Assembly (NCBI GenBank): GCA_029266735.1
Contig: JAQSWG010000016.1
Coordinates: 1-34,295, forward strand
Length of the DNA stretch: 34,295 bases
Source of the DNA: Ornithinibacter sp.
Lineage (GTDB): Bacteria > Actinomycetota > Actinomycetes > Actinomycetales > Dermatophilaceae
Reading direction: 5' to 3'
A program made the position numbers and the translations under genes. Of this stretch, positions 27,203 to 34,295 are shown piece by piece. The notes under the pieces are model-generated. The model did not search any database, was not told where the DNA came from, and saw only the letters and a program-made list of their open reading frames with translations. How positions within the stretch are numbered: position 1 is the stretch's first letter; the number at the start of each line of letters is the position of its first letter.

Positions 27203-27844
27203 CTAGCGCTGCACGGGTGGGTGGGTTGCCGCGTAGACGGCGGCCTGTGTGCGACGCTCCATCCCCAGCTTTGCCAGGACCGACGTGACGTAGTTCTTCA
27301 CCGTCTTCTCGGCCAAGTTCATGTCATCGCCGATCTGGCGGTTCGTCATCCCAGCGGCCAGATGGTCGAGAATGCGGCGCTCCTGCGGACTGAGGCCACG
27401 CAGCCGTGGATCGAGAACCTCGCCACCGGTCCAGCTCTCACGCACACGCCGGGCGCGCTCTGTGTCAAGAAGGTTCTCCCCTGCCGCGATGCGCCGTATC
27501 GCGTCCACCAGCCCGTTGCCCTTGATGTCCTTGAGCAGAAAGCCTGATGCTCCGGCCAGGATCGCAGTGGCGAAAGCCTGCTCGTCATCATAGGAGGTGA
27601 GGATCAGGCCGGCGATGGAGGGATCCACGGAGCGAACCTGACGGCAAGCCTCGATGCCCGAGCCGTCAGGCAGCCGGACATCGAAGACGACCACGGCGGG
27701 CCTCAAGGCCGGAATCCGTCGTGCCGCCTCCTGAGCGAGCCCCGACTCGCCGACCACCTCGAACCCCGGCGCTGCTTCAAGCAGCTCACGCAGACCTCGC
27801 CGCACGATCTCGTGGTCGTCGAGGAGGAACACCTTCACCGTCAC
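27203..27844 (-). CDS. devR: NarL/LuxR-family response regulator, DevR/DosR type
   Basis: A 213-residue two-component regulator. Receiver domain (about 3-120): acidic pair in VFLLDDHEIVRRGL, phospho-acceptor D55 in VVFDVRLPDGSG, the switch Thr in LTSYDDEQ, and Lys in GFLLKDIKG. DNA-binding domain (about 148-210): LSPQERRILDHLAAGMTNRQ, then LAEKTVKNYVTSVLAKLG and MERRTQAAVYA. The recognition-helix stretch LAEKTVKNYV...LAKLGMERRTQAAV is that of M. tuberculosis DevR (DosR), including the DNA-contacting Lys and Asn. It should bind DosR boxes and switch on hypoxia or redox-responsive genes. Start taken at GTG 27844 (MTVKVF); GTG 27838 is an alternative. A DosR-like box lies 76 bp upstream, suggesting autoregulation. 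Confidence 0.88.
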   Translation of the reverse strand: MTVKVFLLDDHEIVRRGLRELLEAAPGFEVVGESGLAQEAARRIPALRPAVVVFDVRLPDGSGIEACRQVRSVDPSIAGLILTSYDDEQAFATAILAGASGFLLKDIKGNGLVDAIRRIAAGENLLDTERARRVRESWTGGEVLDPRLRGLSPQERRILDHLAAGMTNRQIGDDMNLAEKTVKNYVTSVLAKLGMERRTQAAVYAATHPPVQR

Positions 27845-27920
27845 CGATCCCTCACCCACCCTTCGCAACCGCAGGCGCCACGGTCCACTGAGACTATCCG
27901 CAGGCGTCGGTGACCAACGA

Positions 27921-27934
27921 GGGCCGAAGGTCCT
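27921..27934 (-). promoter_or_regulatory. DosR-like box upstream of devR
   Basis: Minus-strand AGGACCTTCGGCCC agrees with the GGGAC-WW-n-GGCCC form of the DosR box except for the first base (and TT in place of AA at the W positions, as in the M. tuberculosis consensus). It lies in the 99-bp gap between the sensor stop and devR. Confidence 0.5.
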
Positions 27935-27943
27935 GACCGCCCG

Positions 27944-29576
27944 TCAACCGGACAAGGGCACGGTCCAGGTCAGGCGCGTTCCAGACGGCTCGACCGCTTC
28001 GAGTTCGCACGTTCCCGACCGCGACATGGCCCGCTGCTGGAGGTTCGCCAGGCCGCTGCGCCGGTGGACCGCGCCGGGACCCAGACCATCGTCAGTCACG
28101 ACGACGACGACGGTTCCGCCGAGCAGCACACGGACCGCCGCGGAGTGCGCCTGAGCATGCCGCGCCACGTTCGACAACCCCTCCCGGACGACGGCGATCA
28201 CGTCCGCGAAGAGAACGTCGTCAAGCGTCGCGAGGTCGCCCTCCACCCGTAGAGACGGTTGAGAGCGAAGGTTCGCGCCGAACGACGCGACAAGCTCTTG
28301 CAGCTGCGTCGCAGCCGTCCCGGCGTCAGCTGCCCTGTGCAGCGCGAAGATCGTTGAGCGGATGTCCCTGATCGCCGCGTCGAGGCTGTCCACTGCCTCT
28401 TCCAGTCGGCCCCTCACCACCGGGTGAACCGCCAATCTCTCGGCGGCCTGGAGCGAGAGTCCCGTGGCGAACAGGCGTTGGATCACGTGGTCGTGCATGT
28501 CGCGCGCGATTCGGTCTCTGTCCTCCAGCAAGGCGACCTGCGCGCGGTCGCGCTGCGCGCGAATCGCGACGAGGCCGAGCCCCACTTGCCGGGCGAAGGC
28601 CGACAACCCCGCCATCGACTCCGAGGCCAGGTCCACCTGACCTGCCTCCCACATCACGAGCAGCTGGCCGAGGTCACCGGTGCCGGCTGAGATCGGGATG
28701 ACGGCCACGGGTCCAGGTTCGGAGAGACCGCCGGCCGACGCCATCTCCGCCACGACGGGCGTCGGGGCACCTCTGTGCGCACCAGGCAACAACAGCAGCT
28801 CCTGAGTCGCAGCGAGAATCTCGACCCAGTGCTCGGCACCTAGGTCGGGCTCACCGGCCGACGAGCTCGAGGCGCCCTCACGCCTCATGGCCCGGATCAC
28901 GGGGACGTCCCGTTCATCGCGCAGGACCACGAAGCATGCATGGGCATCTGTCAGTCGACGGACCTGCGTTGCCACGAGCTCGAGCGCCGAATCCTCCGCC
29001 TCGCTCTCCAGGAGACTCTGGCTCACCTGGCCGAGGGCTTGCGCCCACTCGCGCTGGCGTTGCGCGCCTTCGTAGAGCCTTGCGTGGTCTACAGCCACTC
29101 CGGCGGCAGCGGCAAGGGCCACCAACAGGGCCTCGTCGTCTTCGGAGAAGTCCCTCCCCCCGGATTTCTCGGACAGGTAGAGGTTTCCATAGACCTCGCC
29201 CCGAATGCGGATCGGCGTGCCGAGGAAGGTGCGCATCTCCGGATGATTCGCAGGGAATCCATGGGAAGCCGGATCGTGCGAGATGTTCGACAGCCGCAGG
29301 GGACTCGGATCCCGGATCAGCAAGCCCAGGATGCCGTGCCCGCGCGGAGGGTGGCCGATCGACCGCTGCTGCTCGCACGATACGGGCCAGCACGTCTGAG
29401 AGTTCGAGGTCTGCGCTGACCGCCGTCACCGCGTCGAGCAGGGCTTCGAGCTGCTCGTGCGACCTTCTGGCAGCGCTGGCCCTGGCCCGAACCTGGTCCA
29501 TCGGATCCTCCACGCCGAGTGACACACCCTCCGCCCATTCCTCAGCCGCGGTATCGCGAGGCTCACCTGAGACCAC
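27944..29576 (-). pseudogene. DevS/DosT-like GAF sensor histidine kinase, disrupted in GAF domain 1
   Basis: Two reading frames together make a DevS-type kinase. From 29576 the first frame gives a helical start and [20 protein letters not shown], then RIVRAAA, the beginning of GAF domain 1. The match then jumps to the next frame (from about 29365 down to 27944): [45 protein letters not shown], a second GAF-like domain, the phospho-acceptor helix [15 protein letters not shown] and the ATPase N-box [14 protein letters not shown]. About 35 residues of GAF1, which relatives have between these parts, are missing, and the frame changes there. Kinase modules are intact, so a shortened product from an internal start (for example TTG 29323) is possible. 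The first GAF normally binds haem to sense O2/NO/CO; the lost piece belongs to that domain. Confidence 0.7.
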
Positions 29577-29657
29577 CCTTCGAGGATAAGCGCGGAAGGT
29601 ACCGCGACGTCAGGCTCGACGGATGGCGTCGCGACGACTGCCCCTGTTGCATGCGTC

Positions 29658-29671
29658 GGGACCAACGGCCC
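29658..29671 (+). promoter_or_regulatory. DosR-like box between sensor kinase and USP-like gene
   Basis: GGGACCAACGGCCC, a full match to the GGGACCAANGGCCC form, 35 bp before ATG 29707 and about 81 bp before the first possible start of the divergent sensor. It could serve both. Confidence 0.6.
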
Positions 29672-29706
29672 AGGCCGCCTGCCGAACGGCATCGGACGCT
29701 GAGGGA

Positions 29707-33632: not shown

Positions 33633-33676
33633 CGTGCTTGTCGGTTCATCCTCGGTGAAGCCCCGGGCGTCCACTA

Positions 33677-33690
33677 GGGCATTTGTTCCC
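33677..33690 (-). promoter_or_regulatory. DosR-like box upstream of the phosphotransferase/ADH pair
   Basis: Minus-strand GGGAACAAATGCCC matches 11 of 13 defined positions of GGGACCAANGGCCC. It lies 44 bp before ATG 33632. Confidence 0.45.
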
Positions 33691-33986
33691 GAGGCCCAGT
33701 CTGGAGGGGTGCCGCGGCGAACGCTGGCCCCATCCGTGCGCCCGCAGTTTCAGCCAGGCGGTGCACACCGCGGCGGCACCGAGGAGGGACCGACGGGGTC
33801 GTCCTCGACGACTGCGGCGAGACGTGGTGCGGATGGCGCAGCTCGACCCCGAACGGCCACTTCACACAATGGAGTGGAACCAAGGCCCTTGGTGCGTCCT
33901 CAACGGTGCCGCCAGTGTGCTGGCAGCTGGGCCCGTCCGTGGGCGACCGCCCGCACCCGGCGGCCGCAGCGGATCCGGAGGTCGCC
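33691..33986. other. intergenic region with further DosR-like sites
   Basis: No convincing gene on either strand. Two overlapping DosR-like 14-mers occur at 33875-33888 (TGGAACCAAGGCCC) and, on the minus strand, 33883-33896 (CGCACCAAGGGCCT), 90-110 bp before ATG 33987. A weaker match (GGGACCGACGGGGT) is at about 33785-33799. Confidence 0.4.
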
Positions 33987-34109
33987 ATGCACACACGCAG
34001 AGCCGCTGGAGCCGCGGTTGCCGCCGCGCTGACGGCGTTCGCCCTGGCGTCGGGCGGTGCGACGGCCGTCGAGGCATCACGGCCGCGATGCTGCGCGCAT
34101 CCCCAATGA
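33987..34109 (+). CDS. short putative exported peptide (possibly frameshifted)
   Basis: A 40-codon frame with a strong ribosome site, CGGAGGT, 5 nt before ATG 33987. Residues 1-30 look like a Sec signal peptide: basic MHTRRA, a hydrophobic AAGAAVAAALTAFALASGG core, and an ATAVEA-type cleavage region. It then stops after SRPRCCAHPQ. The next frame stays open from this point to the window end and contains a Cys pair (VWVCSAQGCLV), so a one-base frameshift in a longer exported protein is possible. Neither version is recognised. Confidence 0.4.
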   Translation: MHTRRAAGAAVAAALTAFALASGGATAVEASRPRCCAHPQ

Positions 34110-34227
34110 CTCGCCCGTCGGTTTCGGGCACGGCAGGGTCGAGCCCGACCCGGTATGGGTCTGCAGCGCTCAGGGATGCCTCGTCCAGAGGCGCACCACC
34201 TGTCCTGAACCGCTGACCGAATCAAGG

Positions 34228-34241
34228 ACCAAAGGCCCTGT
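34228..34241 (+). promoter_or_regulatory. DosR-like box near the right end of the window
   Basis: AGGACCAAAGGCCC matches 12 of 13 defined positions of GGGACCAANGGCCC. Its target gene would lie beyond 34295. Confidence 0.45.
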
Positions 34242-34295
34242 TGCCCGGGTGTGCGGTGCGAGTGGATTGGAGCCGGCCGCCGCGGACCGCGGGTG

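Follow-up and report, generated by a model that had tools for sequence, protein, structure and literature searches.

DosR has been studied chiefly as the persistence switch of tuberculosis. We analysed a 34,295-nucleotide stretch of Ornithinibacter sp. (assembly GCA_029266735.1, contig JAQSWG010000016.1), referred to here as the window, whose last part carries, together with the start of the next contig (C48), a predicted DevR/DosR-type island consisting of a regulator gene, a sensor gene and a series of genes preceded by candidate DevR boxes. The island shares its regulator and sensor families with the DevR/DosR-DevS/DosT system of Mycobacterium tuberculosis. The likeness to the DosR regulon extends to universal stress protein (USP), hsp20 and tgs1-class genes, and to a box motif with the core GGGAC...GCCC. 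Unlike in the M. tuberculosis regulon, boxes here are also found ahead of genes for a DoxX-like protein, a 2TM protein and a short-chain dehydrogenase/reductase (SDR), and the order of usp, devS and devR is different. The island also differs in its setting: it adjoins glnA and is absent from the complete genome of another member of the genus.

DevR islands outside the mycobacteria are already known. The OsdR/OsdK island of Streptomyces coelicolor holds a DevR-type pair amid USP and zinc alcohol dehydrogenase (ADH) genes with many predicted boxes, and Table 1 of the report includes sites with GGGACCTTCGGCCC, while the stated consensus is AGGGCCGATCGGCCCT (PMC5069765). In the portion of that report available, the OsdR/OsdK island has the same build as the one described here and some of its boxes carry GGGACCTTCGGCCC, whereas the consensus differs and DoxX is absent. 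In Microlunatus phosphovorus, PolS/PolR is reported to be a DevSR-type pair; the excerpts at hand give PolR 76% identity to DevR, the motif GTTCACnnnnnGTTCaC, and polyphosphate and phosphate as targets (PMC6754071).

A literature search within one PMC library found no paper combining DosR and Intrasporangiaceae. For DosR together with DoxX, the studies found there were all mycobacterial by title or abstract. Neither these nor the papers listed for DoxX with thiosulfate and hypoxia were seen to report a DoxX-like gene as a recurring DevR target in the present family. What is added here is a footprinted family map that includes a DoxX-like recurring target. The map supplies the family with a weight matrix and with a set of target classes, the DoxX-like gene being a recurring and a tgs1-class gene an outlying target. 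Such a box-mapped, non-mycobacterial version would make an older, non-pathogenic role of the regulon testable.

From the sequence evidence set out below, we consider it probable that the regulator binds 14-base boxes before the devR, USP-like, DoxX-like, hsp20, 2TM and SDR genes, and that the island is switched on at low oxygen (or by nitric oxide, NO, or carbon monoxide, CO) through a haem-GAF sensor.

The regulator and its predicted boxes

27203..27868, minus strand: devR/dosR-type response regulator gene, given from the earliest possible start codon; the true start may lie further in

The product of this gene is a predicted DevR/DosR-type regulator. It aligned with the solved M. tuberculosis DevR structure 3c3w (E 2.9e-64, residues 11-214), and its Response_reg and GerE domains both scored over the Pfam cut-offs. 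The recognition helix, which a first-pass annotation of this DNA had noted as having the DevR sequence, was identical to that of DevR over the aligned stretch LAEKTVKNYV. The regulator is the sole close copy in the genome, the next regulator being 40% identical, and four more regulators of the NarL/LuxR type were found at E <=1e-20. In a survey of 186 genomes of the family, DevR was present in 100 at E <=1e-60.

The same annotation had described a string of sites of the form GGGACCAANGGCCC. Exact matches were found at 29658 (plus strand) and 30140 (minus strand), and the remaining sites carried one mismatch (34225, which had been placed at 34228), two (33677) or three (27921 and 33875/33883). 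With up to three mismatches allowed, the window contained 23 matches compared with 26.95 expected from shuffles, and plain mismatch counting was dropped as a test of enrichment. A weight matrix was therefore built from the DevR loci of other genomes. The training set comprised 80 foreign loci (1.30 Mb) found as relatives of the regulator, the nearest being named Terrabacter, Phycicoccus and Intrasporangium. Exact GGGACCWWNGGYCC occurred 40 times in these loci and the reversed control once, indicating that the motif accompanies devR. When the set was expanded from the GGGACCWWNGGYCC occurrences, 157 sites were obtained, whose core consensus is GGGACCTTCGGCCC. The sites discussed in the window scored as follows.

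27921..27934, minus strand: predicted DevR box between the sensor gene and devR, AGGACCTTCGGCCC, score 19.2
29658..29671, plus strand: predicted DevR box between the sensor gene and the USP-like gene, GGGACCAACGGCCC, score 15.5
30140..30153, minus strand: predicted DevR box ahead of the DoxX-like gene, in overlap with the final bases of the USP-like gene, GGGACCAAGGGCCC, score 19.3
33677..33690, minus strand: weak site resembling a DevR box, ahead of the kinase gene, GGGAACAAATGCCC, score 9.9
34225..34238, plus strand: predicted DevR box of the hsp20 gene on C48, AGGACCAAAGGCCC, score 16.9

Scores of at least 15 were reached in the window solely at 27921, 29658, 30140 and 34225, and on C48 at 949, 2642, 2833 and 3625. 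The island, taken as the window end plus the first 4 kb of C48 (11.2 kb, 0.35% of the genome), thus held eight such places, compared with a mean of 0.03 and a maximum of 1 in 300 shuffles. In the 63 kb of flanking sequence (window 1-27000 and C48 4001-40000) there were none. At a score of at least 12, window 1-27000 gave no place and C48 4001-40000 gave two; beyond the sites already reported no place in the window reached 12, and the runner-up scored 11.3 at 24091. The boxes claimed earlier before devR, between the sensor and USP-like genes and before the DoxX-like gene were borne out by these scores. The last site of the string also scored as a box, one that belongs to hsp20 on the adjoining contig. 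The two sites at 33875/33883 scored below 6 and were dropped, and chance remains the explanation for them. The place at C48:3625 (15.8) lies within the SDR reading frame, may be coding only, and was not retained as a promoter site.

Boxes recurred at the same positions in related loci. Among seven relatives compared at a threshold of at least 12 (L176, L178, L180 and L182-L185), the devS-devR box was present in six, and the usp-devS box in five of the six with a usp match. Across the 80 foreign loci, boxes of at least 15 were counted when they lay 10-160 bp ahead of a possible start; devR had one in 22 loci, devS in 13 and the DoxX-like gene in 7. A tandem-USP-like family, so labelled from one representative, had such a box in 15/80 loci. 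The foreign loci gave 197 mechanical box targets, 37 of them singletons. The matrix scan yielded a DosR-type set of boxes, before the regulator, USP-like, hsp20 and tgs1-class genes.

The USP-like and DoxX-like genes

29710..30156, plus strand: USP-like protein gene (PF00582 17.9 bits, cut-off 24); homologues adjoin devRS in relatives
30221..30808, plus strand: DoxX-like membrane protein gene, 195 aa (PF07681 15.6 bits, cut-off 23.6)

Both genes are named "-like" because their profile scores fall below the respective cut-offs. Relatives of the DoxX-like protein are named in their sources as DoxX family or thiosulfate dehydrogenase (quinone) large subunit. The DoxX / thiosulfate:quinone oxidoreductase subunit is likewise a small helical membrane protein, although the protein encoded here lies below the Pfam DoxX cut-off. 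The structure model was of modest confidence (pLDDT 71.6), and a fold search with it gave no PDB match at E <=0.001, the best being E 4.6.

The box before the DoxX-like gene was examined in the 30 best of 51 matches, own locus included, with a matrix whose training had been purged of every 20-mer in the test loci (200/209 sites kept). In 25/30 loci a box of at least 10 was found between positions -67 and -165 relative to the projected start, and in 24/30 one of at least 12. A score of 10 was reached by 1/74 stretches of equal length from window 1-27000, and by 26/141 downstream stretches of the DoxX-like loci; the latter were put down to further island boxes. The gene was also more common in genomes with DevR, occurring at E <=1e-45 in 26/100 of these and in 2/86 others (Fisher P 2.4e-6, relatedness ignored), and at E <=1e-30 in 35/100 and 11/86 (P 5.7e-4, relatedness again ignored). 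Both genes were present in 34 other genomes, and in 25 of these they were no more than 10 kb apart. Judged by predicted box and by linkage, the DoxX-like gene recurs as a member of DevR islands; its membership would extend the usual regulon, as suggested earlier.

The DoxX-like protein would have a membrane redox role in the low-oxygen state. A more speculative proposal, which we regard as possible but short of probable, is that a DoxX-like protein, perhaps linked to quinones, is a family-wide core target of DevR, paired with the USP-like protein beside devRS, and rewires membrane electron flow at low oxygen by passing electrons from sulfur compounds or thiols to the quinone pool. No such branch is known from the DosR regulon of mycobacteria.

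Downstream of the DoxX-like gene, a 43-aa open reading frame (ORF) at 30883-31014 looks like a USP remnant: its match to the USP profile was confined to the final 28 positions.

The interrupted sensor

27944..29323, minus strand: DevS/DosT-type sensor kinase frame, without the first half of GAF-A; its alignment with the crystallised GAF-A domains of DosT and DevS does not begin until chain residue 63-66
29324..29576, minus strand: N-terminal part of the sensor in a different frame, from alignment to relatives

A sensor gene had been noted in the first-pass annotation, and its interruption had gone unreported. In alignment, the DNA at 29324..29576 is about 101 bp shorter than that of relatives, and the frame is lost in the first GAF domain. 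In the remaining frame, GAF_2 (two stretches) and HisKA_3 scored over the Pfam cut-offs and HATPase_c below (19.9 vs 26.4 bits). When aligned to DosT and DevS, the His and Tyr of the GAF-A haem pocket were retained, 22 residues apart; we take these to be the haem-binding His and the distal Tyr. An intact protein of 552 aa from another assembly (P0001, in a cluster of 13 member sequences) covered the sensor fragment with an identity that rounds to 100%, a single difference being observed. Because this near-identical protein is intact, the break is either an assembly fault or private to this strain, and the species most likely has a working sensor.

Sites elsewhere in the genome

The places listed in the genome within one mismatch of GGGACCWWNGGYCC numbered 45 (43 distinct). 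Seven of these were in the island, one of them, at 30482, within the DoxX-like coding sequence. GGGACCWWNGDCCC, counted among the loose patterns without genome-wide excess over their reversed controls, occurred 92 times, compared with 63 for its control. Outside the island, 27 stretches around some of the places were examined and contained 18 places scoring at least 13, of which 13 fall within predicted reading frames.

The best outside site among the stretches examined scored 23.4, at C123:5926 (L128, G000:C123:3900-7900). It lies 90 bp before a gene for a CoA-binding and wax ester/diacylglycerol acyltransferase (WS/DGAT) protein of the tgs1 class. In hypoxic M. tuberculosis, tgs1 is described, in the part of the report available, as positively regulated via DosR (PMC10034137). 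None of the other 185 genomes of the family gave a match to the acyltransferase gene at E <=1e-80, so this site could not be footprinted. The first-pass annotation had expected matrix hits to cluster upstream of stress genes. Among the places examined, the 7/45 in the island and the tgs1-class site pointed to such clustering; the 13/18 within reading frames and the genome-wide counts of the loose patterns pointed away from it.

The island in its genomic setting

The assembly is a draft of 161 contigs, and the last 99 bases of the window are identical to the first 99 of C48. The joint between the two is supported by the complete same-genus genome, in which glnA, present in the window, and the genes of C48 at about 10.9-13 kb lie inside one 20 kb stretch. 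In that genome the collinear flank continues through glnA, and about 12 kb between glnA and the hsp20/aldolase genes (C48 10.9-12 kb) replaces about 18 kb. None of the tested genes matched in the replacement sequence, and matches to DevR, the DoxX-like protein, hsp20 and the kinase were absent from the genome at the cut-offs used. A draft that is 96.6% identical in nucleotide sequence also diverges at the glnA stop, with only about 220 bases remaining on its contig. The island is an accessory block beside glnA. The variable block extends from window 26838 to about 10.8 kb of C48, between glnA and the hsp20/aldolase pair.

The nearest DevRs (85%) belong to another genus, and DevR at E <=1e-50 was not found in 3/3 other same-genus genomes, two of them drafts. 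A genome of that other genus (L178) has the left flank and glnA, followed by devR 6.3 kb further on. Horizontal gain was considered; because two of the three same-genus genomes are drafts and L178 has this arrangement, the pattern fits loss as well as gain.

Proposed mechanism and alternative explanations

In the proposed mechanism, the haem-GAF kinase DevS would sense the loss of oxygen, or NO or CO, and would phosphorylate DevR. DevR would bind the boxes, which lie roughly 40-85 bases ahead of the probable start codons, and activate its own gene and the usp, DoxX-like, hsp20, 2TM and SDR genes, and perhaps also a kinase/ADH gene pair and the acyltransferase gene. We infer DevR binding to the boxes, its phosphorylation by DevS, hypoxia as the signal and induction of the genes, and with them the joint control of the island genes by the strain's own DevR.

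Several results weigh against this mechanism. Genome-wide, the loose patterns showed no excess over their reversed controls (41 vs 38; 589 vs 833), and loose-pattern counts alone therefore cannot define a regulon. The box was missing in 5/30 DoxX-like loci; that of the kinase/ADH pair is weak, and 2/5 other kinase loci had no box. In this assembly the reading frame of the sensor is lost within the first GAF domain. Finally, PolR is a homologue of DevR, yet its motif as given in the available part of the report, GTTCACnnnnnGTTCaC, differs from the boxes found here (PMC6754071).

The interruption could mean that this strain carries a decaying island, with a truly broken sensor, one USP gene reduced to a remnant, and boxes that are relics deaf to oxygen. 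The gap of about 101 bp and the frame break in the sensor, the C-terminal USP remnant of 43 aa, and the divergence of both the related draft and the complete same-genus genome at the glnA stop would fit such decay. However, another assembly encodes a near-identical intact sensor, the remaining genes of the island are intact along with DevR and the boxes, and an assembly fault is possible in a draft of 161 contigs; we consider decay improbable. The boxes could also be real but read by another regulator of the NarL/LuxR type, four of which are present, or by a DevR of shifted specificity, as suggested by the binding of GTTCACnnnnnGTTCaC reported, in the excerpts at hand, for PolR (PMC6754071). 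This appears very unlikely given that the motif accompanies devR in 80 foreign loci, that devR carries a box itself, and that the recognition helix stretch LAEKTVKNYV is identical to that of DevR.

That the string of sites arose by chance in GC-rich DNA is hardly credible. Matches with up to three mismatches in the window were no commoner than in shuffles, the genome-wide loose patterns lacked an excess over control, and most outside places of at least 13 (13/18) lay in reading frames, all as expected from chance. For 27921, 29658, 30140 and 34225, though, chance is contradicted by the matrix, shuffle and flank tests and by the boxes found ahead of these genes in other genera too. DevR control of the island at low oxygen is the reading we prefer.

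The kinase/ADH pair, the hsp20 region and a short ORF

31037..32101, minus strand: zinc-binding alcohol dehydrogenase gene, TIGR02822 (483.3 bits, cut-off 283.5)
32094..33674, minus strand: APH + P-loop kinase fusion gene (AAA_33 76.0 bits, cut-off 27; APH 23.4, cut-off 23.2)
C48:127-585: hsp20 gene, HSP20/alpha-crystallin domain (67.4 bits, cut-off 20.8)

The zinc ADH and kinase genes overlap by 8 bases. The kinase has an APH domain followed by a P-loop kinase domain, an architecture that presumably places it in the Rv2004c class. In 3/5 other family loci of the kinase, a box of at least 12 was found near the start (matrix unpurged). A phosphotransferase/ADH pair with a box had been claimed at this position; the genes are present and the box at 33677, at 9.9, is weak. 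The DosR-regulon gene classes named at the same time, the USP-like, zinc ADH and APH + P-loop kinase classes, were all recovered.

A short exported ORF had also been put forward as a regulon member. It is 40 aa long (33987-34109) and lacks a coding signature, since third codon positions across 33701-34220 have a G+C content of 0.72-0.73 whichever of the six frames is read. Of 30 related stretches searched by tblastn, the 12 listed contained no match, and with no supported box the ORF was set aside.

A box was present at -85 to -114 in 9/9 family hsp20 loci, own locus included (matrix unpurged). In the family genomes G169 and G177 (L222, L224), the hsp20 boxes scored 23.6, yet the search at E <=1e-60 gave no DevR; a more diverged one may have escaped this threshold. 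On C48, hsp20 is followed by a class I aldolase gene, the 2TM protein gene (box 2642 before it) and the SDR gene (box 2833 before it). A further strong box-like site (C48:949-962, L031, score 18.5) lies between hsp20 and the class I aldolase gene, about 300 bp before the aldolase start, and a small gene may be located there.

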